Assembly: GCA_036655895.1 (NCBI GenBank)
Contig: JAVVPF010000001.1
Span: forward strand, 124,001 to 188,000
DNA from: Cloacibacillus sp.
GTDB lineage: Bacteria > Synergistota > Synergistia > Synergistales > Synergistaceae
Direction of reading: 5' to 3'
Length of the DNA stretch: 64,000 nt
Part shown: positions 15,636 through 28,202 of the stretch, one piece after another
How the letters are laid out: the number at the start of each line of letters is the position of its first letter
Position numbering within the stretch: the first letter of the stretch is position 1
Translations under genes and position numbers: made by a program
The notes under the pieces: model-generated
The model's database searches: none
What the model saw: the letters and a program-made list of their open reading frames with translations, nothing else
Told to the model about the DNA's origin: nothing

Positions 15636-16565
15636 TCACTTTTCACCGGCGGCCCGCGCTAGATTTAAGAGCGGCCAACTATACTGAAAAGAATAAAGCG
15701 GATACGGATACTCGTTGTACGCGACGCGGTATTCCGGCGGCCAATTTTCAACGCGCCTGACGGCCGCCGCGCCGTTTGCAAGCGACGCGTCGTCGCCGCG
15801 AATCAGAATATAGACCGTAAGCGCGCGCATATCGTCGCGCACGCGAAAGCGTATGTCGCAGACGCCGTTTTCACGCGGCTGCTCCCCCGCCGTGCGAAAG
15901 TCATTCGTATATAATTTGCCGTCGCGCGAAAAAACTTCAAGCGCGCGAAAATGGACTATCCTGTCGCCCTTGGGCAAATAAAAATCCTTCGCCGCGTAAT
16001 TTTTGACGGTAAGCTTCGCGCCGTTTGCCGCAAGCGCGCAAAATGGCGTCCGCTTGCGGCAGCCGGCGAACAAAAGCCAGTTTTTTACAGACGAGCCTTT
16101 ATCAAAGAGCGAAAGGTCCAGATAATTTAAAACAGGCGGCGCGTCGAAGGTAAGTTCTGCCTTGCTCTCCACGCCGCGCGCCTCGTTTTTCAGCCGCGCG
16201 CTTTCTGGAAAGCCGAAGGCGACGCGCAAAAGCCCTTCGGGGCGTTTGTCGTAAGTGGGCAGTATTGAAAGAGGCCCGTTCCAGCTAAACGGCGTAGCGA
16301 GCCTGTTGTTGAAGCCGCGTTTATAGCCTTCGGCGCCCGCCGCCATGCCCATGCCGCAGTAAAACACCGGAGCTACAAGAATGGCGGCGACGCACTCGGC
16401 GCGCCGCTGCGCCACCGCCCTGTCGCGGCAGAGCCGCAGCTCGAAAGAGGCCGTGCGCCACAACGACAAGGCCGCGGGCAGTATGAGTGCGAATATAAAA
16501 AGAGCGGCAAGACAGTCTGCAAGTATAAAGGCGCGGCTAACGCGGCGTCGACGCAAGCGCCGCAT
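15636..16565 (-). CDS. Pilin-like membrane-anchored protein of the type IV pilus locus
   Basis: 309 residues from ATG 16565; a longer reading from 16643 overlaps the preceding pilin gene and adds only a basic tail. The N terminus is very basic (RRLRRRRVSRA), then FILADCLAALFIFALIL. This looks like a prepilin N terminus with Ala rather than Gly before the cleavage point and Asp rather than Glu at mature position 5. The remaining 270 residues are a large unrecognised domain rich in aromatic residues. It overlaps the small pilin-like gene by 29 bases and is the last gene of the pilus operon, so a minor pilin or tip-associated role is inferred. Confidence 0.6.
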   Translation of the reverse strand: MRRLRRRRVSRAFILADCLAALFIFALILPAALSLWRTASFELRLCRDRAVAQRRAECVAAILVAPVFYCGMGMAAGAEGYKRGFNNRLATPFSWNGPLSILPTYDKRPEGLLRVAFGFPESARLKNEARGVESKAELTFDAPPVLNYLDLSLFDKGSSVKNWLLFAGCRKRTPFCALAANGAKLTVKNYAAKDFYLPKGDRIVHFRALEVFSRDGKLYTNDFRTAGEQPRENGVCDIRFRVRDDMRALTVYILIRGDDASLANGAAAVRRVENWPPEYRVAYNEYPYPLYSFQYSWPLLNLARAAGEK

Positions 16566-16746
16566 CCGGTGAGACCAGCAAAAGGGCCGCCGTTTCCGCG
16601 TCCCTCGTTTCGCGCAGGAGCGCCTCGTTTGAGACGGCTTCAAGCCTGAAATTCATATAGTGGATGGAAAAAGCCGCCGCTGCGAGAACGGCGAAGATGA
16701 AGACGGCGGAAAGCGCCTCTGTTATGAAAAAGCCCCGCCGCTTCAT
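16537..16746 (-). CDS. Small minor pilin (class III prepilin signal)
   Basis: 69 residues. MKRRG then FFITEALSAVFIFAVLAAAAF is a classic prepilin signal: basic leader, Gly at -1, Phe at +1, Glu at +5, then a hydrophobic helix. Only about 40 residues follow, so it is almost all N-terminal helix and very short for a pilin. Starts two bases after pilT and overlaps the next pilin-like gene by 29 bases, implying coupled translation. Processing needs a prepilin peptidase, which is not in this window. Confidence 0.7.
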   Translation of the reverse strand: MKRRGFFITEALSAVFIFAVLAAAAFSIHYMNFRLEAVSNEALLRETRDAETAALLLVSPDAALASTPR

Positions 16747-16748
16747 GG

Positions 16749-17822
16749 CTACATCATGTAACGGTTGAAGCTCTCGATGTCATAGGCGCGCGCAAGCGCG
16801 TCACGGCGGCTGACGATGCCGCTTTTGCAAAGCCGTGAAAGGTCTTGGTCCATAGTGTGCATACCAAGCGCCGCACCGGTCTGGATGACGTTCTTTATCT
16901 GCGAAGTCTTCCCCTCGCGGATGTAATTGTTTACGGCGTTCGTCGCCACCAAAAATTCCGTGGCGATGGTGCGTCCCGTCGTGCCCGAAAGCGGCACTAG
17001 CTGCTGAGAGAGCACGCCAAGAAGCATAGAGGCGAGCTGTATGCGTATCTGCTGCTGCTGATAGGGCGGGAATACGTCGACGACGCGGTCAACGCTCTGC
17101 GCCGCGTCCCGTGTATGCAGCGTGGCAAGCACAAGATGTCCAGTCTCCGCCGCCGTCACAGCGGCCGATATCGTCTCAAGGTCTCTAAGTTCGCCTATCA
17201 TCAGCACGTCCGGGTCTTCGCGCATCGCGCGGCGCAGCGCCTCGGAAAAAGATTTCGTATCGCTGCCTATCTCGCGCTGGTGTATCAGCGCCAGCTCCGA
17301 ATTGTAGAGATATTCAATAGGGTCCTCCACCGTTATCAGGTGCAGCGAGCGCGTCATATTTATCTCCTGTATCATAGCGGCAAGCGTCGTTGACTTACCG
17401 GAGCCTGTAGGCCCTGTCACAAGGAAGAGGCCGCTGTTCTTCTGCGCTATTTTTTTAAGCTCTTCCGGCAGGCTAAGCTGCTTTATCGTCCTTATGTTCG
17501 TAGTGATGGCGCGAAGCGCAAGCGCAGGGTGTCCCTTTTCAAAGAAAAGATTGGCTCGAAAGCGCTGCTCGCCGCTGCCGATATTCATGCCGAAGCTGAA
17601 ATCGAACTCGCGCTCCTCGTTGAAGCGCGCGAACTGGTCGTTCGTAAGCAGCTCTTCAATGACGAAGCGCATATCCTCGTCAGTCAAATCGGTGTGCTCC
17701 GGCAGACGCACAAGCTGGCCGTCTATGCGCAGCATAGGCGCGGAGCCGACGCTCATGTGGATGTCGCTTGCATTGTTATGGATAGCGTTTACAAGGATGT
17801 CCTGGAACAGAAAATTAGGCAT
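16749..17822 (-). CDS. pilT: Type IV pilus retraction ATPase PilT
   Basis: 357 residues. Walker A is GPTGSGKSTTL; the Asp box VEDPIEY and Walker B region DPDVLMIGELRD follow, with His-box ETGHLVLATLHT. AVNNYIREGKTSQI corresponds to the PilT AIRNLIREGK signature, separating it from PilB. Retracts pili by disassembling pilin. ATG with AAGGAG upstream, 15 bases after pilB. Confidence 0.96.
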   Translation of the reverse strand: MPNFLFQDILVNAIHNNASDIHMSVGSAPMLRIDGQLVRLPEHTDLTDEDMRFVIEELLTNDQFARFNEEREFDFSFGMNIGSGEQRFRANLFFEKGHPALALRAITTNIRTIKQLSLPEELKKIAQKNSGLFLVTGPTGSGKSTTLAAMIQEINMTRSLHLITVEDPIEYLYNSELALIHQREIGSDTKSFSEALRRAMREDPDVLMIGELRDLETISAAVTAAETGHLVLATLHTRDAAQSVDRVVDVFPPYQQQQIRIQLASMLLGVLSQQLVPLSGTTGRTIATEFLVATNAVNNYIREGKTSQIKNVIQTGAALGMHTMDQDLSRLCKSGIVSRRDALARAYDIESFNRYMM

Positions 17823-17837
17823 AACGGCAGCTCCTTA

Positions 17838-19556
17838 TCAATCAATAAGCGTAGTGTAAAGCATCTCTTCCACGCTGGTGACGCCCTCTTCGACCTTCCT
17901 GCGCGCGTCCTCGCGCAGCGTAAGCATTCCGTTCTTTATGGCCTGCGTGCGAAGCTCCTGCTCCGAAGCGCCGTCGTTTACCATCTTTTTCAGCGTATGG
18001 TCTATCGGCATTATCTCAGAGATGACCGTGCGTCCTTTATATCCGGTGAAGCGGCATTCCGCGCAGCCCTTCGGCGTATAGACGGGAGTTCCCTCCGGTA
18101 TGCCCGAATCCTTAGATTCAAGCTCCGTCACAAAGCTCCTCTGACGGCACGACGGACAGAGTTTTTTCACAAGCCTCTGCGCCACCACGGCGCGCAGCGA
18201 CGATGAGAGCAGAAAGCGCGGAACTCCCATGTCAACGAGCCTGTTTATGGAGGTCGGCGCGTCGTTAGTATGCAGCGTGCTCAGCACGAGATGTCCCGTG
18301 AGCGCCGCGCGCACGGCAAGCTCCGCCGTCTCCGTGTCGCGGATCTCTCCCACCATTATTATGTCGGGGTCCTGACGCAGTATCGAGCGCATGGCGCTGC
18401 CGAAGGTGAGGCCGATCTTTTCGTTGATCTGTATCTGCGTGATGCCGCCGATAGTGTATTCTACAGGGTCTTCCAGAGTGATGATGTTCTTCGTAGGTTC
18501 GTTCAAAAGTTCGAGCAGCGAATAGAGCGTAGTCGACTTACCGGAGCCTGTAGGCCCCGTCACCAGCACGATGCCGTTTGAGGCGCCTATCGCGCTCTTA
18601 AGCAGCGTCTGCTGCTCTTTGCCGAAGCCGAGCTTGTCTATGCCGATGCGTCCGCTGTTTTGGTCAAGAAGCCTCAAAACGGCCTTCTCGCCGAAAATCG
18701 ACGGCAGAGTCGAAACGCGCAGGTCGATGCGCGAGCCTGCGACCTTTATCAAAATGCGTCCGTCCTGCGGGCGGCGCTTCTCCGCTATGTCCATGCCGGA
18801 AAGTATTTTGATGCGCGCGACCAGCGGCTGGTGCAGATTGCTGGGTATCTCGAGATTGCTGAAAAGCGAGCCGTCTATGCGGAAACGCACGCGCGTCATG
18901 TTTTCCGCGGGCTCAATGTGTATGTCGGAGGCCTTCTCGCGCACCGCCTGTTCGAGTATGCTGTTCACGAGGCGCACGACGGGAGCCGCGTCCGCCGAGA
19001 TGTTCGTCACGTCCTGCGCGGTGGTCTGCGAGACGGTCACGATGTCTGGCGTCTTCGCGGAATCTCCCTCCTGCTTCATGACGTCCTTCATTGCGTCGTT
19101 GACGCTCGTCTGCACCCTGTAATAGCTGACGAGAGCCTTGTGGATGTCCGTAGCCGTCGCCACGCGTATCTCTAACTCCCTGTTCGTCAGAAGATAAAGT
19201 TCGTCTACAGCGTATGTGTCCATAGGGTCGGACATCGCGACGACTATTTTGTCGTCGCCTTGCAGCGATATGGGCAGTATGTTGAGCCGCGATGCGACAT
19301 TTTCTGGAACGGCCGCCAAAGCCTCCTGCTGCGGGCGCACGTTGACGAGCGATACGAAATCCAGGTCAAGCTGCGTGCAGAGCGCCTCCGCCAGGTGGTT
19401 CTCCGTCAGATAGCCGTCCTTTATCAATATCTCGCCAAGGCGCAGATGCGAAGCCTTTTGTTCTTTTAGCGCCGATTCCAGATTTCCAGCGGAGATGACG
19501 CCAGCGTTTATCAGCAGTTCGCCAAGGCGTACGACCTTGATTGGCTGATGCGGCAT
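17838..19556 (-). CDS. pilB: Type IV pilus assembly ATPase PilB
   Basis: 572 residues. The N-terminal GspE_N domain (LGELLINAGVIS, HLRLGEILIKDGYLT) precedes the ATPase core with GPTGSGKSTTLYSLL, LEDPVEY, RQDPDIIMVGEIRD and TGHLVLSTLHTND. Four zinc Cys follow (LCPSCRQ and GCAECRFTGYKGR), diagnostic for PilB/GspE rather than PilT. Drives pilus extension with PilC. Starts two bases after the secretin stop. Confidence 0.96.
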   Translation of the reverse strand: MPHQPIKVVRLGELLINAGVISAGNLESALKEQKASHLRLGEILIKDGYLTENHLAEALCTQLDLDFVSLVNVRPQQEALAAVPENVASRLNILPISLQGDDKIVVAMSDPMDTYAVDELYLLTNRELEIRVATATDIHKALVSYYRVQTSVNDAMKDVMKQEGDSAKTPDIVTVSQTTAQDVTNISADAAPVVRLVNSILEQAVREKASDIHIEPAENMTRVRFRIDGSLFSNLEIPSNLHQPLVARIKILSGMDIAEKRRPQDGRILIKVAGSRIDLRVSTLPSIFGEKAVLRLLDQNSGRIGIDKLGFGKEQQTLLKSAIGASNGIVLVTGPTGSGKSTTLYSLLELLNEPTKNIITLEDPVEYTIGGITQIQINEKIGLTFGSAMRSILRQDPDIIMVGEIRDTETAELAVRAALTGHLVLSTLHTNDAPTSINRLVDMGVPRFLLSSSLRAVVAQRLVKKLCPSCRQRSFVTELESKDSGIPEGTPVYTPKGCAECRFTGYKGRTVISEIMPIDHTLKKMVNDGASEQELRTQAIKNGMLTLREDARRKVEEGVTSVEEMLYTTLID

Positions 19557-19558
19557 AG

Positions 19559-21421
19559 CTATAGCCCGCCTGACTGGTACAGGCCGACCTTCGGCATGTC
19601 GATCACCTCTGCCGCTCCGGTCGGGATGTCAAGTATATATGGGATGGCGATAAAGGCCATCTGAGATTTTGAATGTTTCGTAGTGCTGTTCTTAAAGAGG
19701 TTGCCGAGGAGCGGTATATAGCCGAGTATAGGCACGCGCGAGACGTTCTTTGTTTTGTTTTCCTGATAGAGGCCGCCTATGACGAAAAGCTCGCTGTTGC
19801 GCACGCGTACCTGCGTCTCCACCTCGCGCTTTGTCGTCTCCGGCGCTTCGGAGGTGCCCGACTGCCGGAAGGCGACTATCTCGCCCGTCGATATCTTCAT
19901 TTTTATAGTAATGAAGCCGTCGCGCCCCATTATCGGCGTAAATTCGAGGGTAGGCCCCGTCTCCTGATTTGTGAACTCGGGGTTGCCGTTTTCATCGACG
20001 CCCGACTGATAGAGGTAGTTGTGCGTCAGCTTCACAGTGGCCTTCTGCCCGTCAAGCGCCACGACGGAGGGAGAGGCAAGGATCTTGCCCTTGTTGTCCG
20101 ACTCCATGAGGCGCAGGCCGGCGTCCAGCATCTTCATGGCGGGGTCTATAACGTTCGCCGGGAAGGTAGAGTCTGTGCCGCCGCCTATCATCGGCAGCTC
20201 GCCCTGCGTCGTCGTGCCCACTGGGTCGACGTTCGGCTTTATCAGTCCGTTGCCGTAGGTATAACGGCTGCCAAGGCCCGTCGCGCCGTAGGTGAATATC
20301 CAACCGCGATAGACCGCGGCTATCATTGATTCAATGTCCTGCTGCGCGCCGTCGCTTATCTCAACGAGCCGCGCCTCTATCATTACCTGCTTTCCCGGGT
20401 GGTCGATACGGTTCATCAGCGTCTCTATCCGGCTGTGCTGCTCAGGCGAGGCTGTAACGTAAAGGCAGCGGAGCCTGTCGTCTACGACGGGCGGCTTTGC
20501 GAGCGGCACAAGCCCCATGATGATTGCAGGCAGCTTCGCCGTGTCGGCGTAGGCCACTTTGTACTGGCGCGTCTGGTTCTGTCCAAGCGTCTTTCCGATG
20601 CTGTCCGCTGTGCCGACCACCAGCGTCTTTCCCATGAAGGAATAGGCCAAGTCGTTCATGCGCAGCATATACGAGAAGACCTCGTTGAACGGCGTCTTTT
20701 TGAACGAGAAGGTCATCGGCGTCTCAGGAACTGTGGAGTCGATCACGAGATTCAGATTGCGAAGCTGCGCGAGCATCCTAAGCACCTCGCGCACGGAGAC
20801 GTCGCGTAGTTCAAGCGTCACTGGCGCGGAGATGGCAAGCGGGTCGCCGTATGGCTTCGGCCTTGCGGGCGGCATGAGCGGAGGCGGAGTGATGCCCGTA
20901 GCTGGCGCGTCAAGCTGTATGCGCAGCCTGTTTGAGCCTTCCATGCCGGAGATCTCTTTTACAACCAGCGGCTTCGGGCCTATGATGTTCAGCGTGATGC
21001 CCTTTTTATCGTTAGAGGTGACGATTATCTGCTCCACAAGCGGCAGGTCGTACTTCTGCATCCACTGTTCGCTTTTTTTAAGGTCGATGCGCAGAACGTC
21101 CCATTCAAAATCGCCCCACCAATCCTGTTTGTCGGTGTCCTGCGGAAAGCGGATGTTGCTCCAGGCAAGCGCCGCCGCGTTGTTAGACTCTACCGCCTCC
21201 GGGTGTGATATTTTTACGCCGCGCAGTTCAAGTATCACCTGATTTGCGCCGTTTTGTGAAATGTGTAGGCCCTCGATGCGCGGCTCCAAGTTTTTCAGCT
21301 TGCGCGCCTGAGTCTCCGTAGCCTGCGCGCAGCCGCAAAACAGCACGGACGAGGCGATAAAGGCCGTAATCAGATAAAAAAAGATATTTATAATTCTGTG
21401 CGGTATTTTTTGTTTGCCCAC
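19559..21421 (-). CDS. pilQ: Type IV pilus outer-membrane secretin PilQ
   Basis: 620 residues starting with GTG 21421, AGGAG ten bases upstream, overlapping the PilP-like gene by 34 bases. A signal peptide (hydrophobic FFYLITAFIASSVLFCGCAQA) is followed by an AMIN-like region (about 45-175). N0/STN and N1 domains follow (LRDVSVREVLRMLAQ, then SRIETLMNRID). The secretin barrel carries the signature VPILGYIPLLGNLFKN. Forms the outer-membrane pore through which the pilus passes; shows the cell is diderm. Confidence 0.94.
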   Translation of the reverse strand: MGKQKIPHRIINIFFYLITAFIASSVLFCGCAQATETQARKLKNLEPRIEGLHISQNGANQVILELRGVKISHPEAVESNNAAALAWSNIRFPQDTDKQDWWGDFEWDVLRIDLKKSEQWMQKYDLPLVEQIIVTSNDKKGITLNIIGPKPLVVKEISGMEGSNRLRIQLDAPATGITPPPLMPPARPKPYGDPLAISAPVTLELRDVSVREVLRMLAQLRNLNLVIDSTVPETPMTFSFKKTPFNEVFSYMLRMNDLAYSFMGKTLVVGTADSIGKTLGQNQTRQYKVAYADTAKLPAIIMGLVPLAKPPVVDDRLRCLYVTASPEQHSRIETLMNRIDHPGKQVMIEARLVEISDGAQQDIESMIAAVYRGWIFTYGATGLGSRYTYGNGLIKPNVDPVGTTTQGELPMIGGGTDSTFPANVIDPAMKMLDAGLRLMESDNKGKILASPSVVALDGQKATVKLTHNYLYQSGVDENGNPEFTNQETGPTLEFTPIMGRDGFITIKMKISTGEIVAFRQSGTSEAPETTKREVETQVRVRNSELFVIGGLYQENKTKNVSRVPILGYIPLLGNLFKNSTTKHSKSQMAFIAIPYILDIPTGAAEVIDMPKVGLYQSGGL

Positions 21422-22011
21422 TGCCAGCTCACTCCTTTCGGATCTATAGAAAGAATTTTTCCTTTGCCTCCGCCGAACGACGCGCCCTGCTGCAATATCT
21501 GGCCCGCCTCTTCGCCGTCGATGTCAAGCGTGCAGACGGATTTTTCTCCCAGCACGATGAGCGCCTTTATCTTGACAGTCGGGATAAAATCGGGAACGCT
21601 CGTCTCCGATGCCGACTTTGGAGGCGGCGTCACCTGCGCTATCGGCGACCGCCCCACTGAGTCCTCTAAAGCCGCAAGCTCCGGCGACTGCTCGCGCAGA
21701 GTGACAAACGCGTCGTATTTTGCGTTCAGCGACTCCGCCCGTTTTTTGACCTCGACGTTCATCCGGGGCAACCCCTCGTGCGCGGGCTTTTCAAAGCCAA
21801 GATTGATGATGTTCGTAAAATTGTAAAAGGTATAGACCGAGGCCGCACCCATGACGAGAATTGCCGCCGTCGAGATATAGCTCTTTTTTTTGTCCTCCGG
21901 CGACATAGCGGCGGCGCGGCTGTTTAGGCTCCGCATAAATCCGCTCGCGCTTATAGATTTCATATTTTTTAAAGACGGCAGATGCAGCCCTTTGAGATCA
22001 AACTTCTTCAT
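21388..22011 (-). CDS. Type IV pilus inner-membrane lipoprotein-position protein (PilP-like)
   Basis: 207 residues with one hydrophobic segment near residues 47-66 (STAAILVMGAASVYTFYNF). A linker containing QVTPPPKSA follows, then a small C-terminal beta domain (VKIKALIVLGEKSVCTLDIDGEEAGQI and ISIDPKGVSWQWANKKY). Its place between pilO and pilQ and its architecture match PilP/GspC, which ties the inner-membrane complex to the secretin. There is no lipobox, unlike proteobacterial PilP, so assignment rests on position and shape. Confidence 0.7.
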   Translation of the reverse strand: MKKFDLKGLHLPSLKNMKSISASGFMRSLNSRAAAMSPEDKKKSYISTAAILVMGAASVYTFYNFTNIINLGFEKPAHEGLPRMNVEVKKRAESLNAKYDAFVTLREQSPELAALEDSVGRSPIAQVTPPPKSASETSVPDFIPTVKIKALIVLGEKSVCTLDIDGEEAGQILQQGASFGGGKGKILSIDPKGVSWQWANKKYRTEL

Positions 22012-22547
22012 TTCGCCGCCCCCACAGCCGCCGCAGCGGGCGGGCTCACCATCGCGGAGACGGTGAATCCATATTTTACTTCGTTGTTCGTCATGCCTTC
22101 GATGGACAGCTCCGTGACGCGCATCATATAGGAGCCCTGCCGCAGCGAGGCGAGCAGATGCAGCAGCTGATTGTAGTTCGCGACGCCTGCTACCTTAAAA
22201 GAGGTGTTCTGTTCCGTCTCCTCCGCCTTTGTCACGTCCGCGTCGTCAAAGCTCTGCGAAGAAAGCAGCCCAAGCAGAACGGAATAAAATTTATTCGGCG
22301 ACTCAACCGGGCCAGGCAGCCCCTTGTCGTCTATCTTAACAAGCGACTTGTACTGGAGGACGGCGTCTGCGCGCGACTCCATAGCCGCCCGCTGCACCTG
22401 CGCCTCCTGATATGAAAGGTCAAGCTGCTGATAGGCGGAGGCCAGCTTCTGCATCAGGATAAACTGCAAAGCCACCGCGAAAACAACCGCGGCTCCAGCC
22501 GCCATCAGATGGGCGCGCTTCATCTCTGTGATGTCAAAACTTCTCAT
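22008..22547 (-). CDS. pilO: Type IV pilus alignment protein PilO-like
   Basis: 179 residues: short cytoplasmic N terminus, one membrane helix (AHLMAAGAAVVFAVALQFIL), coiled-coil to about residue 65, then a ferredoxin-like periplasmic fold (SFKVAGVANYNQLLHLLASL). This is the PilO/GspM layout. Overlaps pilN by 4 bases and the PilP-like gene by 4 bases, so the set is translated as a unit. Confidence 0.8.
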   Translation of the reverse strand: MRSFDITEMKRAHLMAAGAAVVFAVALQFILMQKLASAYQQLDLSYQEAQVQRAAMESRADAVLQYKSLVKIDDKGLPGPVESPNKFYSVLLGLLSSQSFDDADVTKAEETEQNTSFKVAGVANYNQLLHLLASLRQGSYMMRVTELSIEGMTNNEVKYGFTVSAMVSPPAAAAVGAAK

Positions 22548-23212
22548 TGTGCGCCGCCGCCTTCCGTTTCGCCAGTCTTTTCGTTTTGTTCGGGCGCGGG
22601 CGCGCCATCTGTTTTCGGCGCGGCTTCCGCGGCCTTTTCAATACCGCCGTCTTTCAGCGCTTCGGCAAGAGGCTTAAGCTTCAGCTCAATGGAAAATGCG
22701 CGCAGCTTCACGCCGTTTCGCTGAGCCGCCGCGATGGTCGGCAAAGAGACGGAGGCGACCGTGGCCGCGGACAGCAGATCGTCGCCGAACTGCAATACCT
22801 CTTCGTCGGCGAAGGCGACGCCCTTGATGGTGGCCGCAGCCGCCGTCATAGTGAGCGATTCCACCACTACACCGTCAATAAGTTTGTTATTCAGCTCATA
22901 AAGAAATTCAACAGAGGGCACGTCGCCCAGCGAATAATCAAGCTTCGCCTCAATGGCCGCGCTCTGCTGCGAAAGACGTTCGTATTCCTTGTCCATCGCA
23001 GCCATCCGCTCGCCGTTTATCCGCATCGACTGCGCGATGTCGGCGCGCTCGCCAAGAATTGAATAAAATTTCCAGCAGGTCATAGAAAAAAGCAGCATAA
23101 AAGTAAGTGTAAAGACGGCGGCGAGAGAGAAAAGCAGATAATGCCTGCCGTTCTTTTCCTGTTCGGCGGCCGATTCCTGTTTGTTTATCCGAAGATCCAG
23201 CTTTACGACCAT
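22544..23212 (-). CDS. pilN: Type IV pilus alignment protein PilN-like
   Basis: 222 residues. The N-terminal KLDLRIN motif resembles the PilM-binding NLLP segment of PilN. One membrane helix (LLFSLAAVFTLTFMLLFSM) follows, then a coiled coil to about residue 90 and a periplasmic alpha-beta domain. An unusual Ala/Glu/Pro-rich tail covers the last 25 residues. Starts one base after pilM. Confidence 0.8.
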   Translation of the reverse strand: MVVKLDLRINKQESAAEQEKNGRHYLLFSLAAVFTLTFMLLFSMTCWKFYSILGERADIAQSMRINGERMAAMDKEYERLSQQSAAIEAKLDYSLGDVPSVEFLYELNNKLIDGVVVESLTMTAAAATIKGVAFADEEVLQFGDDLLSAATVASVSLPTIAAAQRNGVKLRAFSIELKLKPLAEALKDGGIEKAAEAAPKTDGAPAPEQNEKTGETEGGGAQ

Positions 23213-23213
23213 A

Positions 23214-24164
23214 TCATCTCATCGCCAATCCCAGCGCAATATCCCATTCACCGCTGTTTCTGAAATCAATGCCGTGTATCTTCATTGGGTCCACCTGCAT
23301 CACAGTGCCCATAGTGATGGAGTCCTTCATGAGGTCTCTTAAATAGGGCGTTGCGCCGGGGCCGAAAAGATAAAGCGACTTTGTGGAAAAGCCCCTGTTC
23401 TGCGAAAGCGCGAATTGCAGCGACGAACGAATGTCGCGCACGAACGAAAAGGCGTTGTCCCTGTATTCGTCAGAATCGGCGCCCTTTGCCATCGTCTCCG
23501 CCGGGAAGCCGAACGAAATGTTGCGGTAGAAGATGCCGTTGCCGTGCCACGAAAGGATGAGCACCGAACGCAGCTGCCCCGCGTAGACGAAGACGCAGGC
23601 GTCCTCTATCGGCACAGCCGGGCTTGCGGCCCGTTCAAGCGCAATCTGCGCCGGTTCAAGCGACAAGAGCCGAATGTTGTGCGCCGCCGCCCCTTTTGCT
23701 ATGTTGTCCAAAAGAGTGCGGCGCGCGGCGGCAGCGAGAAAGCGCTGTTCCGTCGTATCCTCCGTCAGCGGGTAATCTATCTCCGCGATGTCATAGACGC
23801 CGTCCCTCTCCGCGAAGGGAAAATAATTCTCAAAATCATAGCGAAAGGCCTGCTTTGCCTCCGGCAGCGTCATGCCCGGCATAGCGACTATGCGCAGCAG
23901 CGATTCAGTGATGGGGAGGGCGAAATTGACGGCGGTGTGGAATGATGAAATGGAGGAGGAGATATAACTGAAAATAAGGTCGAGATAGGCGCCGTTGTCC
24001 TCAAACGGGTCGTCGGAGTGCATATATCCCTCCGGTATCTTTTCCGTGACGGAATCGACGACGGTGTAGACGTCGTCCGCGCATTCAAGAGACAGATAAC
24101 GGAAAACGCCGCTGTCCAGCATGAGGCCGGCGGATATTTTTTTCTTCTTCAAAAAAAAGCCCAT
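23214..24164 (-). CDS. pilM: Type IV pilus actin-like protein PilM
   Basis: 316 residues of the FtsA/actin-like PilM type. It contains INFALPITESLLRIVAMPGM-like text (VNFALPITESLLRIVAMP), then EAKQAFRYDFENYFPF, the conserved PilM stretch. The phosphate-2-like VFVYAGQLRSVLIL and a late LYLFGPGATPYLRDL are also present. Sits on the cytoplasmic face and binds the PilN tail. First gene of the M-N-O-P-Q-B-T run; a TATAAT lies about 80 bases upstream. Confidence 0.85.
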   Translation of the reverse strand: MGFFLKKKKISAGLMLDSGVFRYLSLECADDVYTVVDSVTEKIPEGYMHSDDPFEDNGAYLDLIFSYISSSISSFHTAVNFALPITESLLRIVAMPGMTLPEAKQAFRYDFENYFPFAERDGVYDIAEIDYPLTEDTTEQRFLAAAARRTLLDNIAKGAAAHNIRLLSLEPAQIALERAASPAVPIEDACVFVYAGQLRSVLILSWHGNGIFYRNISFGFPAETMAKGADSDEYRDNAFSFVRDIRSSLQFALSQNRGFSTKSLYLFGPGATPYLRDLMKDSITMGTVMQVDPMKIHGIDFRNSGEWDIALGLAMR

Positions 24165-24241
24165 GAGACTCCCCCATCGACAAATATAAAGACTAGCAAC
24201 GGCACGACGTAAAGCAAAGAATACTTGCCGCCAGCGTAACC

Positions 24242-24247
24242 ATTATA
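24242..24247 (-). promoter_or_regulatory. Candidate -10 element upstream of pilM
   Basis: TATAAT on the minus strand in an AT-rich stretch 78 bases before pilM. No good -35 is visible. It would give pilM-T a transcript separate from the pilin genes. Confidence 0.35.
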
Positions 24248-24305
24248 TATTAAATCGCTGAAAAATATATAGCGAAAGTTTGTGAACGAGGGGGGTTATC
24301 ATTGT

Positions 24306-24354
24306 GGGAAGAGGTGTGGCCGCACCTCTTCCCGCAGCGGCCCTGTGCGGGGCC
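24306..24354. repeat. Two adjacent GC-rich hairpins between pilin-like gene and pilM
   Basis: An 11-bp perfect inverted repeat (24306-24316 with 24323-24333) lies beside a 5-bp GGCCC/GGGCC hairpin (24339-24354). No T tract follows on the minus strand, the direction of the genes. A T-rich run follows on the plus strand. May be an mRNA-stabilising or processing structure between the pilin and pilM transcripts. Confidence 0.6.
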
Positions 24355-24383
24355 AGCAGCTTTTGTTTTCTTATTTTTATTTT

Positions 24384-24905
24384 CTAAAACTGTGCGTTTG
24401 GGTTGTAGTTTGCCGTCTTTATCAGCATGTAGACATCTTTGCCGCCGGCGTAGTCGGGTTTTTTATTGGGGTCGGCCGTGGGCGCCGCGTAAAGCTTGTC
24501 TTTTTCCGCGAGGGCTTTCAGCGCCGCCGCTACCTTGTTGTCCGCCTTTGGGATGATCTCCGTCGCCGCTCCGTCGTACTTGACAAAGAGCGCGCCGCCG
24601 TCGTCCACCACGGAGAGGCCCGTCACGTCGATGTTTATCTTTGAGGCCGTCTGGCGCTGTATATCCTCAAGCGACCGCGGCCACGAGGCTGTGTCCGCAA
24701 AGTAGGCGTAGGTGCAGGCGCGCACGTTGCTCATATCCGCCGCTATCCTGTGCGCCTGCGCTACGGCGGTGGCGTTGTGCTCCGTGTTCATCAGAAAACC
24801 TGTCGTCAGCGCAATGACTACGATGAGTATCATAAAATGCTTCTGCGTCAATGCCTTTGAAATATCCTTTTCTTTTTTTGTTTCCTGTCTCTCGCTTTCG
24901 CTCAT
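24384..24905 (-). CDS. Pilin paralogue lacking a prepilin cleavage signal
   Basis: 173 residues from ATG 24905 (AGAGGA eight bases upstream); earlier in-frame starts lack ribosome sites. The N terminus is 29 polar residues (SESERQETKKEKDISKALT), then one membrane helix HFMILIVVIALTTGFLM. The soluble part parallels the major pilin: DMSNVRACTYAYFADTASWP against NMRNIKAATIMMYSDNDNKWP, and later IIPKADNKVAAALKALAEK. The Gly-Phe...Glu cleavage motif is absent, so it would stay in the inner membrane. Lies between pilA and pilM. Function unknown; a pilin chaperone or assembly factor is one reading. Confidence 0.72.
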   Translation of the reverse strand: MSESERQETKKEKDISKALTQKHFMILIVVIALTTGFLMNTEHNATAVAQAHRIAADMSNVRACTYAYFADTASWPRSLEDIQRQTASKINIDVTGLSVVDDGGALFVKYDGAATEIIPKADNKVAAALKALAEKDKLYAAPTADPNKKPDYAGGKDVYMLIKTANYNPNAQF

Positions 24906-25098
24906 CCTTCGCATCCTCTTTTCATTTATTTTCGCGGTACATAGATACGCGCCGAAGAGACGAAAAAATCCGCCTCCCTTTATGACTAAGGCAAAGCCTC
25001 TTGTCATTAAAAAGGATAGCGGATTATTAATTTGAAAGCGTTTGTAAGACTACGCTAATGGAGATAGGTGGAAAGACGGAAAACTGTTTTTTATCTCG

Positions 25099-25554
25099 TT
25101 ACTTAATATTCATGGAAGCTGTTGTGTCAGACACTGTTACACCACTACTCTCAAGCCCAGTAAGTTTTTCTGCAATATTCTTATCAATTTTCTCAGCCTT
25201 AATCGTAGCTTTTATTCCAGTTGTATCCGCTTTAGGGAAAGTTACAGAATAAGTAGCGCCTGTCGGCTTGCTGTCCAGATATTTTTCAATCGAATTAGGA
25301 GTAGTATCAATAGTATCACCAATCGCCTTGATATCATCCGATGGCCATTTATTATCATTATCAGAATACATCATGATTGTCGCGGCCTTGATATTTCTCA
25401 TATTTGAGAGAATCTTCGTAGCCTCAGCCTTGTCAGTCGCCGCGCCAGTTGACAGCATCATCATACCTGCGAGTATACCGATGATGATGATTACGATGAG
25501 AAGTTCAACGAGTGTAAAGCCCTTTTTGCGGTTCTTTTTGATTATTTTCTGCAT
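25099..25554 (-). CDS. pilA: Major type IV pilin PilA
   Basis: 151 residues from ATG 25554, with AAGGAGG eight bases upstream. The leader MQKIIKKNRKKG is followed by FTLVELLIVIIIIGILAGMM, a textbook class III signal with Glu at +5; the mature form is about 139 residues. The C-terminal region is Thr/Lys rich with no Cys pair, so no disulfide D-loop. The gene is AT-richer than its neighbours. A 190-base leader precedes it, consistent with high expression and post-transcriptional control. Confidence 0.92.
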   Translation of the reverse strand: MQKIIKKNRKKGFTLVELLIVIIIIGILAGMMMLSTGAATDKAEATKILSNMRNIKAATIMMYSDNDNKWPSDDIKAIGDTIDTTPNSIEKYLDSKPTGATYSVTFPKADTTGIKATIKAEKIDKNIAEKLTGLESSGVTVSDTTASMNIK

Positions 25555-25681
25555 TTCTAAATTTCCTCCTTGTATGTTTTTTAATAAAAGCCGATTCCGC
25601 CGCGCGTGCCCGCCCTGCATCGCACAAAGACGCCTCTTCGTGCCCCCTGGTATTGAAAAGGTCACAATATGCTTCCGGCAT
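25505..25681 (-). CDS. Possible upstream small ORF overlapping the pilA start
   Basis: A 58-codon ORF starting MPEAYCDLFN, three bases after a full AGGAGG (short spacing). It stops 50 bases inside pilA in another frame. Composition is unremarkable and no family is recognised. If translated it would run ribosomes across the pilA start. Equally, the AGGAGG may be chance or an RNA structure element. Confidence 0.25.
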   Translation of the reverse strand: MPEAYCDLFNTRGHEEASLCDAGRARAAESAFIKKHTRRKFRNAENNQKEPQKGLYTR

Positions 25682-25754
25682 ATTCCTCCTTCAATAATTA
25701 TGTATTAAACTTTCCTATGACGCAAAACGCCTTACGTGCTGCTCAAACGTCTCT

Positions 25755-25760
25755 ATTATA
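25755..25760 (-). promoter_or_regulatory. Candidate -10 of the pilA promoter
   Basis: TATAAT on the minus strand in a strongly AT-rich segment just downstream of pilC, about 200 bases before the pilA ATG. The hexamer 17 bases upstream (TTCCAT) is a poor -35; no sigma-54 GG...GC pair was seen. Confidence 0.4.
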
Positions 25761-25799
25761 ATATTAATTTAAATAAAATGGAATATCTATTTACGCAGG

Positions 25800-27056
25800 C
25801 TACATCAATGTTGTGATGGCGGTGATTATCGGCAGGAAGATGGCGAGCACCATGAAGCCGACTATGACGCCGACGAAGACGACCATGACCGGTTCAAGTA
25901 TCGAGCTTAAGCGCTTCACCTTTTCCGACAGCTCCGCGTCGTACCAGTCGGCCACCTTCTGCAGCATTTCGTCTGTGCGGCCCGTCTCTTCGCCTACCGC
26001 TATCATGTGCGCTATCATCGGCGGGAAAAGTTTTTTCTCCTGCACTATCTGGTGCAGAGGCTTGCCCATCGCGGCGCCGTCGCGCATCTCGATGAAGGCG
26101 CGCCGCATTTTTTCGTTGCCGGCGACGTCGGCCGTCATTTCAAGCGCGGTGAGCACCGGCACGCCGGACTGCAAGAGCGAACCCATCGTGCGGAAGGCGC
26201 GCGTGCTTGAAGATTTAAATACTATGTCGCCAAATATCGGAAGTTTCAGCAAAAAGACGTCTATAGGCATCTTCATCGACGGCATTCGGCGCAGCTTCGC
26301 AAGCAGCAGAGCAAGCAAAACTATCGTTATCGGTATCGTGTACCAGTTGGCCTGCATCCAGCGGCCGAGGCTGAAGGTCATTTGCGTGAGCATGGGCATC
26401 TCTATGTTCATGTTGCTGAAGGCCTTTTCAAACTGCGGAATGACGACGACGACCATTGCGCCGAGCACGAGCAGCGCGATTGCTATGACGACCGACGGGT
26501 AGGTCATCGCGGAGATTATTTTTTTGCGCAGGTTGTCTTGATCTTCCATGAAGCCGGCAAGTTTTGTGAGGCTTGCATCAAGCGTTCCCGATTCTTCGCC
26601 GGACCTGATGAGCGGTATGGTGATGGCGTCAAAGACCTTTGGATTTTCCGCAAGCGCGTTTCCGAGCGTCGTTCCCGCGCTGACACGGTTGTAGACGCGC
26701 GTCAGCACGCGTTTGAAGCGTTTGTTCTGCGTCTGCTCTATCAATATCGCAAGCGACGACGTGACGGGGATGCCCGCCGTTATCATTGTGGCGAGCTGCC
26801 GAAAAAATATAAGTTTGTCGCGCATTTTGATGCGCGCGGAAAGCTCCCAGAACGGATCTTTCAGGCCGGCCTCTTTCGGCGCGGCGGAGGCGCGCTCCGA
26901 GGCGCCTGTGAGGGAGATGGAATGGTCGACCGAGATGTTTATGGGTATCCACCCTTTGCCGCGAAGCCACGAAATAACGTCGGCCTCCGCCTGTCCCGAA
27001 CGCGAGCCGCGCATCGTCTTTCCGTCCGGCGCTTTAGCTTCATACTGGAATTCCAC
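25800..27056 (-). CDS. pilC: Type IV pilus inner-membrane platform protein PilC
   Basis: 418 residues with a GTG start (27056) after GGGGGGA. Two T2SSF repeats: FFRQLATMITAGIPVTSSLAIL in the first and FRTMGSLLQSGVPVLTALEM in the second. Three long membrane helices follow the GspF pattern, including the C-terminal VFVGVIVGFMVLAIFLPI. PilB acts on this platform during pilus growth. First gene of the pilus locus, with its own promoter. Confidence 0.94.
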   Translation of the reverse strand: MEFQYEAKAPDGKTMRGSRSGQAEADVISWLRGKGWIPINISVDHSISLTGASERASAAPKEAGLKDPFWELSARIKMRDKLIFFRQLATMITAGIPVTSSLAILIEQTQNKRFKRVLTRVYNRVSAGTTLGNALAENPKVFDAITIPLIRSGEESGTLDASLTKLAGFMEDQDNLRKKIISAMTYPSVVIAIALLVLGAMVVVVIPQFEKAFSNMNIEMPMLTQMTFSLGRWMQANWYTIPITIVLLALLLAKLRRMPSMKMPIDVFLLKLPIFGDIVFKSSSTRAFRTMGSLLQSGVPVLTALEMTADVAGNEKMRRAFIEMRDGAAMGKPLHQIVQEKKLFPPMIAHMIAVGEETGRTDEMLQKVADWYDAELSEKVKRLSSILEPVMVVFVGVIVGFMVLAIFLPIITAITTLM

Positions 27057-27087
27057 AAAGATCCCCCCTCGCTCTGTACCGAGATTC

Positions 27088-27116
27088 AGAATATATTCAT
27101 TGCCTTAAAAAGTCAA
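27088..27116 (-). promoter_or_regulatory. Promoter of pilC
   Basis: TTGACT (27111-27116), 17-base spacer, TATTCT (27088-27093) on the minus strand, 32 bases before the pilC GTG. Confidence 0.65.
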
Positions 27117-27140
27117 CGGAAGAGAAATGCTGTCACACAT

Positions 27141-27163
27141 AAAAAGAGGGCTTTTGAAGCCCC
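27141..27163 (-). terminator. Intrinsic terminator after the Panacea toxin-antitoxin pair
   Basis: Stem GGGCTT/AAGCCC (27148-27153 with 27157-27162). On the minus strand it is followed by TCTTTTT. Insulates pilC from the toxin-antitoxin unit. Confidence 0.75.
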
Positions 27164-27170
27164 ATGATTT

Positions 27171-27653
27171 TTATTTTATGTATTCCGAAAGCGCTTCACG
27201 GATCCTGTGTTTTACAGGAGGTTCAAGGTCGTTGCGATTTGAATCTATCCCTTGAAGTATCTGTATAGCCTCTTCTCGTCTCAGGCGCCCTTTGAATCTA
27301 TTTTTGTCATTTGCCAAAGCCACCGTGATTTCAGCCATAGATGGAAAACAATCGTCAACGTAGTCAAGAGAAGACGCCTCTGTATGATAATCAAGATAAG
27401 AATCGTGATGAAGAAAACTATAGACATCAGAGGGCAATGTGATTTCGCATTCGTTCCACTTCTTGCGTTCTTTTTTTGAATTGATAAAAAAGAAAATCGG
27501 AGGATCCTTGCCATCCATGAGAGCAAGATACTTGTTTTTGATTACGCCATTGGAAAAATGAGTTTCTAAATATAAAATTGAGCCGGTAGAACACGCACAC
27601 TCCGCCGGCAGTAACTCAAATAGCTTCGGCAGTAACCGATTGTTCTGTGACAT
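27171..27653 (-). CDS. Probable toxin partner of a Panacea (DUF4065) antitoxin, unknown mechanism
   Basis: 160 residues, no signal peptide or membrane segment. Features are GSILYLETHFSNGVIKNKYLAL near the N terminus, PPIFFFINS in the middle, then DVYSFLHHDSYLDYH and a helical C terminus. The opening half (a beta-rich segment followed by a hydrophobic FFINS strand) is reminiscent of small SH3-like toxin folds, but I cannot name the family. It overlaps the end of the DUF4065 gene by 38 bases and shares its low GC, and the order is antitoxin first. Toxin status is inferred from that pairing. Confidence 0.6.
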   Translation of the reverse strand: MSQNNRLLPKLFELLPAECACSTGSILYLETHFSNGVIKNKYLALMDGKDPPIFFFINSKKERKKWNECEITLPSDVYSFLHHDSYLDYHTEASSLDYVDDCFPSMAEITVALANDKNRFKGRLRREEAIQILQGIDSNRNDLEPPVKHRIREALSEYIK

Positions 27654-28164
27654 TTTTAATATGCCTCATTATGCTGCCGTCTGTGTCCACACTCTTAACC
27701 AGTGACTCAAAAGAGATGCGGTCGTCGGCTTCAGCCTCTTTGTAGTCGGACTCCTCGTGACTGGCTGTAATAAGCTGTCCCATGGGCATCGTCCCATATT
27801 TTTTGAGAGAATCATTTAAGCAGATATAGTCAATATCACTTAGGAAATCCGCGTTATATTCTTTATCCGCGACAATCTCATACTCAGATGAAAAATGGAA
27901 CGGAGCGTCGCGCAGGCAATCAAAATCGCATATTCCATCGCCGCGAATATATTTTAGCATATCATACGCGGTGCTTGGCACGGGCCCTTTTTGCAGAGCA
28001 TAATAATTTTCTCTGTACATTGTATTTCCCGACAGTCTGATATGTTCTTTATCCGCAAAGTAAATCACTTTCAGAAGATTGTACATATTTGTACATCCAT
28101 GCGAAAGGATATACAAAATAATCGACAGCGCCTTGTCGCAACGCACTCTTTTATTCAGTGACAT
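27616..28164 (-). CDS. Panacea-domain (DUF4065, SocA-like) antitoxin
   Basis: 182 residues from ATG 28164, with AAGGAGG seven bases upstream; the longer reading from 28191 has no ribosome site. The hallmark block KALSIILYILSHGCTNMYNL, then LLKVIYFADKEH and ALQKGPVPSTAYDML, defines the Panacea domain. Panacea proteins neutralise many unrelated toxins, and SocA itself is a ClpXP adaptor for its toxin SocB. AT-rich relative to neighbours, with its own promoter and terminator, so likely acquired. Confidence 0.82.
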   Translation of the reverse strand: MSLNKRVRCDKALSIILYILSHGCTNMYNLLKVIYFADKEHIRLSGNTMYRENYYALQKGPVPSTAYDMLKYIRGDGICDFDCLRDAPFHFSSEYEIVADKEYNADFLSDIDYICLNDSLKKYGTMPMGQLITASHEESDYKEAEADDRISFESLVKSVDTDGSIMRHIKNVTEQSVTAEAI

Positions 28165-28202
28165 GTTCAATACCTCCTTGCTGCAAACCACTTAAATGCC
28201 CT

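Follow-up and report, generated by a model that had tools for sequence, protein, structure and literature searches.

GspK-type minor pseudopilins lack Glu5, keep the cleavable Gly and sit at the tip or base. In the archaellum, ArlF and ArlG (FlaF and FlaG) are described as a putative stator pair that arose by duplication of the filament protein ArlB; the cited passages argue that a filament subunit, once duplicated, turned into a fixed stator component, and state that within the filament superfamily the ArlFG stator occurs in the archaellum only (PMC8667602). Among the literature matches listed, whose titles and abstract openings were compared, none described a pilin without its signal in the type IV pilus locus of a bacterium.

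The window analysed here is a 64,000-nucleotide stretch from a Cloacibacillus sp. genome (G000, contig C1, positions 124001-188000). Its type IV pilus locus carries a gene for a protein of this kind, which we call SlpA; SlpA, and SlpB for a second paralogue found in related genomes, are labels coined in the present analysis.

The slpA gene in the pilus locus

The genes lie on the minus strand in the order pilC, major pilin, slpA, pilM, pilN, pilO-like, pilP-like, pilQ, pilB, pilT and minor-pilin-like ORFs. The features are as follows, with a slash marking the cleavage position in prepilin sites here and below.

25800-27056, minus: pilC platform protein (T2SSF, E 6.1e-63)
25099-25554, minus: major pilin, 151 aa, prepilin site KG/FTLVE (Pfam N_methyl, E 1.1e-9), KKGFTLVELLIV
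24967-25025 (approximate), minus: terminator-like hairpin followed by UUUUUU, between the pilin and slpA (150-nt fold, z -3.06, matched by 1 of 200 shuffles)
24384-24905, minus: slpA (label given here), signal-less pilin paralogue, 173 aa
24306-24360 (approximate), minus: two hairpins in the gap from slpA to pilM (99-nt fold, z -4.45, matched by 0 of 200 shuffles)
23214-24164, minus: pilM-like (Pfam PilM_2 at 17.9 bits, below the cut-off of 27; the label leans on position)
22544-23212, minus: pilN (PF05137, E 2.9e-8)
22008-22547, minus: pilO-like (position, and a weak T2SSM match below cut-off)
21388-22011, minus: pilP-like (position only, no family match)
19559-21421, minus: pilQ secretin (PF00263, E 1.7e-39)
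17838-19556, minus: pilB-type assembly ATPase (MshEN and T2SSE)
16749-17822, minus: pilT-type ATPase (T2SSE; the PilT label comes from position and length)

The SlpA protein consists of a polar tail (residues 1-23), an uncharged hydrophobic run (24-41), a helix with the motif AxAHRI from residue 49, a globular part to about residue 163 and a C-terminal extension (164-173). The best 19-residue hydrophobicity window spans residues 23-41 (KD 1.86). The polar segment, first annotated as 29 residues, therefore measures 23, as the uncharged run begins at residue 24. Family models have a blind spot for proteins of this kind. Window SlpA has zero matches in Pfam up to E 1 and three weak matches in NCBIfam, with no prepilin model among them, and neither SlpA nor SlpB of genome G028 is detected by Pfam. 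AlphaFold models of the two window proteins from two-row alignments reached pLDDT values of 37.5 and 39.8, which is very low confidence.

The hairpins bear on both the start of the gene and its transcription. A longer reading of slpA from an ATG at 25007 (207 aa) is unlikely because the terminator-like hairpin and its U-run overlap the upstream in-frame extension. The hairpins between slpA and pilM have no U-run on the gene strand; a U-rich run follows them on the plus strand, and they could terminate a plus-strand transcript. Folding of the 150 bases that follow slpA is strong in G028 (z -8.63) and weak in G015 (z -2.00, matched by 9 of 200 shuffles) and G020 (z -1.80, matched by 10 of 200). 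Rfam gave nothing at gathering thresholds over 23000-27500, the hairpin stretch occurs once in the genome, its only other match being its own inverted repeat, and a pattern scan found promoter-like and terminator-like sites no commoner than in shuffles. The presence of hairpins on both sides suggests something other than simple co-transcription of slpA with pilM, and the gene may well be its own transcription unit.

Several other features of the surroundings were recorded. Of the minor-pilin-like ORFs, one at 15636-16643 (minus) has the site A/FILAD, in which Asp replaces Glu5, and its counterpart in G028 reads A/FTLAE; another, at 16537-16746 (minus), is very short, encoding 69 aa with G/FFITE, and overlaps the next gene, and the corresponding ORFs of G028 and G020 encode 103 and 105 aa. 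Between groEL (identified by eye) and pilC lies a SocA-like Panacea antitoxin gene (27616-28191, minus; PF13274, E 7.8e-15), followed by a 160-aa ORF (27171-27653, minus) that belongs to no family and is possibly the toxin partner; PADLOC gave no match. Cloacibacillus porcorum is described as non-motile, and the words pili, fimbria and flagell are absent from the text of that description (PMC3709534).

Relationship of SlpA to pilins and to SlpB

The first-pass annotation took the 173-aa product for a pilin paralogue, and comparison across genomes bears this out. SlpA matches a pilin of genome G010 at 44 of 121 positions (36%, E 1e-21), and the match extends into the C-terminal part. The window's own pilin gives only a weak match (15 identities in 45 positions, pairwise E 0.006; E 1.9e-6 in a whole-genome search), since it has itself diverged in the second half. 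The window major pilin also lacks the VxMxIK-like end common to most of the aligned pilins, its divergence lying in the C-terminal half. In the PDB, a profile of the four known SlpA proteins with 22 pilins retrieved chains of geopilin, GspG and PilE; a profile of SlpA alone retrieved none of these. The 22 pilins used here and below were picked for carrying the prepilin motif, and three further pilins (L015, L035 and L005) were left out of the alignment. By sequence, SlpA retains the amphipathic second half of helix 1 and the pilin globular domain. The match to the G010 pilin supports the descent of SlpA from bacterial pilins.

In G015, G028 and G020 a second signal-less pilin paralogue, slpB, lies upstream of slpA. 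SlpB has 191-202 aa, with a charged tail of 37-41 residues that is longer than that of SlpA, a membrane segment and a site-less pilin-like remainder. We did not find SlpB in the window's genome, where the search gave four matches (best E 2.2e-5), each of them an ordinary pilin or slpA itself. The SlpA and SlpB profiles align over 137 columns (E 1.1e-10), and the His of the motif A-x-A-H-x-I occurs in three of four SlpA and all three SlpB (six of seven Slp proteins) and in 0 of the 22 pilins. In a tree of the soluble part, SlpA and SlpB each form a clade (100/99 and 100/100), and the branch that separates the two together from the 22 pilins has a support of 88/79, below the program's mark for firm support. 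A single loss of the signal preceding the SlpA/SlpB split is likely on these grounds.

Loss of the prepilin site

The absence of a GFxxxE site, which had been proposed for the window protein, holds there and extends beyond it: the same loss is found in three genomes of two other genera, with no orthologue retaining a signal. A site of the form (G or A)/FxxxE before the hydrophobic helix is present in 0 of seven Slp proteins (missing from all four SlpA and all three SlpB) and in 22 of 22 pilins, which were chosen for it. A misread slpA start was rejected as an explanation since a terminator-like hairpin lies in the extension and since the site is also absent from the other three SlpA.

In all 22 pilins the distance between the cleavage site and the A-x-A-x-x-I motif is exactly 30 residues, and the corresponding residues of SlpA were counted by hand from the translations and the motif positions. 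At the pilin cleavage register SlpA reads A/L in the window, E/K in G015 and G028, and E/R in G020, and the position of Glu5 is taken by His in the window and by Gly in the other three. Shifting the site by five residues gives H/F, G/M, G/L and G/F (window, G015, G028 and G020), with Glu5 never present. By its sequence, window SlpA has no prepilin site in either register. The window genome has one prepilin peptidase match over the cut-off and 12 N_methyl matches over the cut-off among the 13 listed, so the loss of the signal is specific to slpA.

The shifted register bears on an alternative in which SlpA is a minor pilin. The peptidase would cut at the shifted site before the hydrophobic segment, and the Glu5-less product would take its place at the pilus tip or base in the manner of GspK. 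The glycines of G015, G028 and G020 agree with such a site, and shifted cleavage may occur in those three, but the His of the window means that the Gly is not conserved. Cleavage here would also leave a mature helix five residues shorter than in the 22 compared pilins, and the tails of SlpA in the window and in G020 hold five acidic residues each. We consider this assignment unlikely.

Occurrence in related genomes

Searching 185 genomes of the phylum with the SlpA profile gave four matches (G000, G015, G028 and G020, all at E 2.3e-89 or better), and the next match, at E 3.2e-27, is the G010 pilin, which keeps its GFTLVE site. The SlpB profile gave three matches in the same 185 genomes (G015, G028 and G020, E 5.2e-101 or better; next 2.9e-7). 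These counts are of profile-detectable proteins, which more diverged orthologues could escape; on them, SlpA is known in four genomes of three genera.

A survey of pilM gave 43 matches in 42 of 52 genomes of the family, and the upstream side was read at 30 of the 43. Three of these have slpB-slpA upstream of pilM, one has slpA alone (the window), eight have an ordinary pilin and one has a pilin whose start is cut by the contig end. At six loci fewer than 600 bases are available and no pilin is seen; at 11, 1500 bases are available with no pilin, some of these matches beginning inside pilM. The pilin and pilM of G010 both lie at contig ends, which hides their arrangement.

The pilus genes are split in two of the genomes that carry the pair. 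In G028 and G020 slpB-slpA adjoin pilM, while pilC-pilA sit elsewhere, some 0.85 Mb away next to groEL (read by eye) in G028 and on another contig in G020. Transposase-like ORFs lie close to the break in G028 (read by eye). A CRISPR-like array is found about 4 kb from slpB in the same genome (L037, 18066-18983), seen as repeated FNPHEREARD and ILIHTSVKLVT in the ORF translations.

In three genomes of genus g9 an ordinary pilin immediately precedes pilM, and both slpA and slpB are absent from the genus; the slpA-slpB pair seems dispensable. G025 of this genus, which has neither gene, joins G015 and G028 (95/95) in a tree of PilM, PilB and PilQ from six genomes, in which the outgroup G022 has no PilB and a long branch. 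This grouping suggests that losses of slp genes have probably occurred, with horizontal transfer as a possible alternative.

Conservation and proposed function

Mean pair identity among the four SlpA, with gaps scored as mismatches, is 0.12 in the tail, 0.28 in the membrane segment, 0.61 in the helix, 0.61 in the globular part and 0.48 in the C-terminal extension. Conservation of the helix and globular part, and not of the tail, points to a periplasmic role.

The reading that we favour, tentatively and at somewhat less than an even chance, is that SlpA is an uncleaved, membrane-anchored accessory protein with a pilin fold that acts in the periplasm. A pilin gene would have been duplicated within the pilus locus, and SlpA would afterwards have lost both the FTLVE mature start and the preceding Gly that the prepilin peptidase needs; polar, charged or glycine residues now occupy the positions of the first mature residues. 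With no usable site, the protein would be neither cut, methylated nor polymerised, and would insert into the inner membrane as a predicted single-pass protein, its short tail in the cytosol and its pilin domain in the periplasm. The sequence predicts that it stays in this membrane. Through its conserved helix and globular domain SlpA may be a fixed periplasmic partner of pilins, of the assembly platform or of both, and in the relatives it would act jointly with SlpB. A role in regulating assembly or retraction is possible.

An extension of this proposal, which we regard as improbable, is that the bacterial SlpA and SlpB arose independently of the archaellum as a pair of uncleaved pilin duplicates that form, at the periplasmic face of the inner membrane, a fixed scaffold or stator for the pilus machine, the window keeping a one-protein version. 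Were such a bacterial stator-like case true, the one-gene and two-gene states, together with the relatives that lack the genes, would allow one to ask what an uncleaved pilin does to the pilus machine.

The same conservation pattern weighs on the proposal that SlpA is a membrane-bound regulator, which would pair with pilin in the membrane, in this way sense or restrict the supply of free pilin, and thereby tune assembly or retraction. The retained pilin helix and domain would suit such pairing, as would the position of slpA next to the major pilin gene in the window, but the cytosolic tail through which a signal would leave is not conserved, and in G028 and G020 slpA lies away from the pilin gene. 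We doubt that this is the function of SlpA.

Selection argues against a functionless, decaying duplicate. Although the signal is lost and occurrence is patchy, with slpB missing from the window and both genes from genus g9, the frame is open in three genera, the orthologues are 48-53% identical to the window protein and 55 columns are invariant. In a single genome pair, G015 against G028, dN/dS is 0.22 for SlpA and 0.14 for SlpB, compared with 0.23 for PilP, 0.11 for PilM, 0.10 for PilQ and 0.06 for PilB. Comparisons with the window gave 0.31 and 0.22 for SlpA, but with silent sites near saturation (dS 1.57-1.93), and are given no weight here. Both slp genes look to be under purifying selection in that one pair, which disfavours a pseudogene, and we judge decay to be very unlikely. 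Similarly improbable is a secreted protein, released when ordinary signal peptidase cleaves at an AxA past the hydrophobic run, for although an alanine-rich stretch follows the segment (ATAVAQA in the window), this AxA corresponds in the alignment to the conserved A-x-A of the pilin helix and lies eight residues beyond the uncharged run in the window (four in G015).

Comparison with known systems

The helix and globular domain of SlpA align with those of type IV pilins of the GspG/PilA kind. Unlike these, SlpA lacks GFxxxE and the start of the mature helix and has a 10-residue C-terminal extension, and in the window the tail is longer and polar. Glu5 is absent from both GspK and SlpA, whereas window SlpA has His where GspK keeps its cleavable Gly; the other three of the four SlpA have Gly at that place.

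By alignment and tree, SlpA is a relative of filament subunits without the filament-type N-terminus. As described for ArlF and ArlG in the passages cited above, it would be a duplicate of a filament subunit with one membrane helix and a soluble domain, and its N-terminal helix is shortened. Two paralogues are likewise present per locus in G015, G028 and G020, with one gene only in the window. In contrast to ArlF and ArlG, SlpA is bacterial and of pilin rather than archaellin type, and its shortening is about five residues against 15-20. The resemblance would thus be one of evolutionary route, namely duplication of a subunit and loss of the filament-type start, and not of descent or membership, and it says nothing on rotation. 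On the cited account of the archaellum pair, ArlF and ArlG appear to be the nearest precedent in kind for SlpA.
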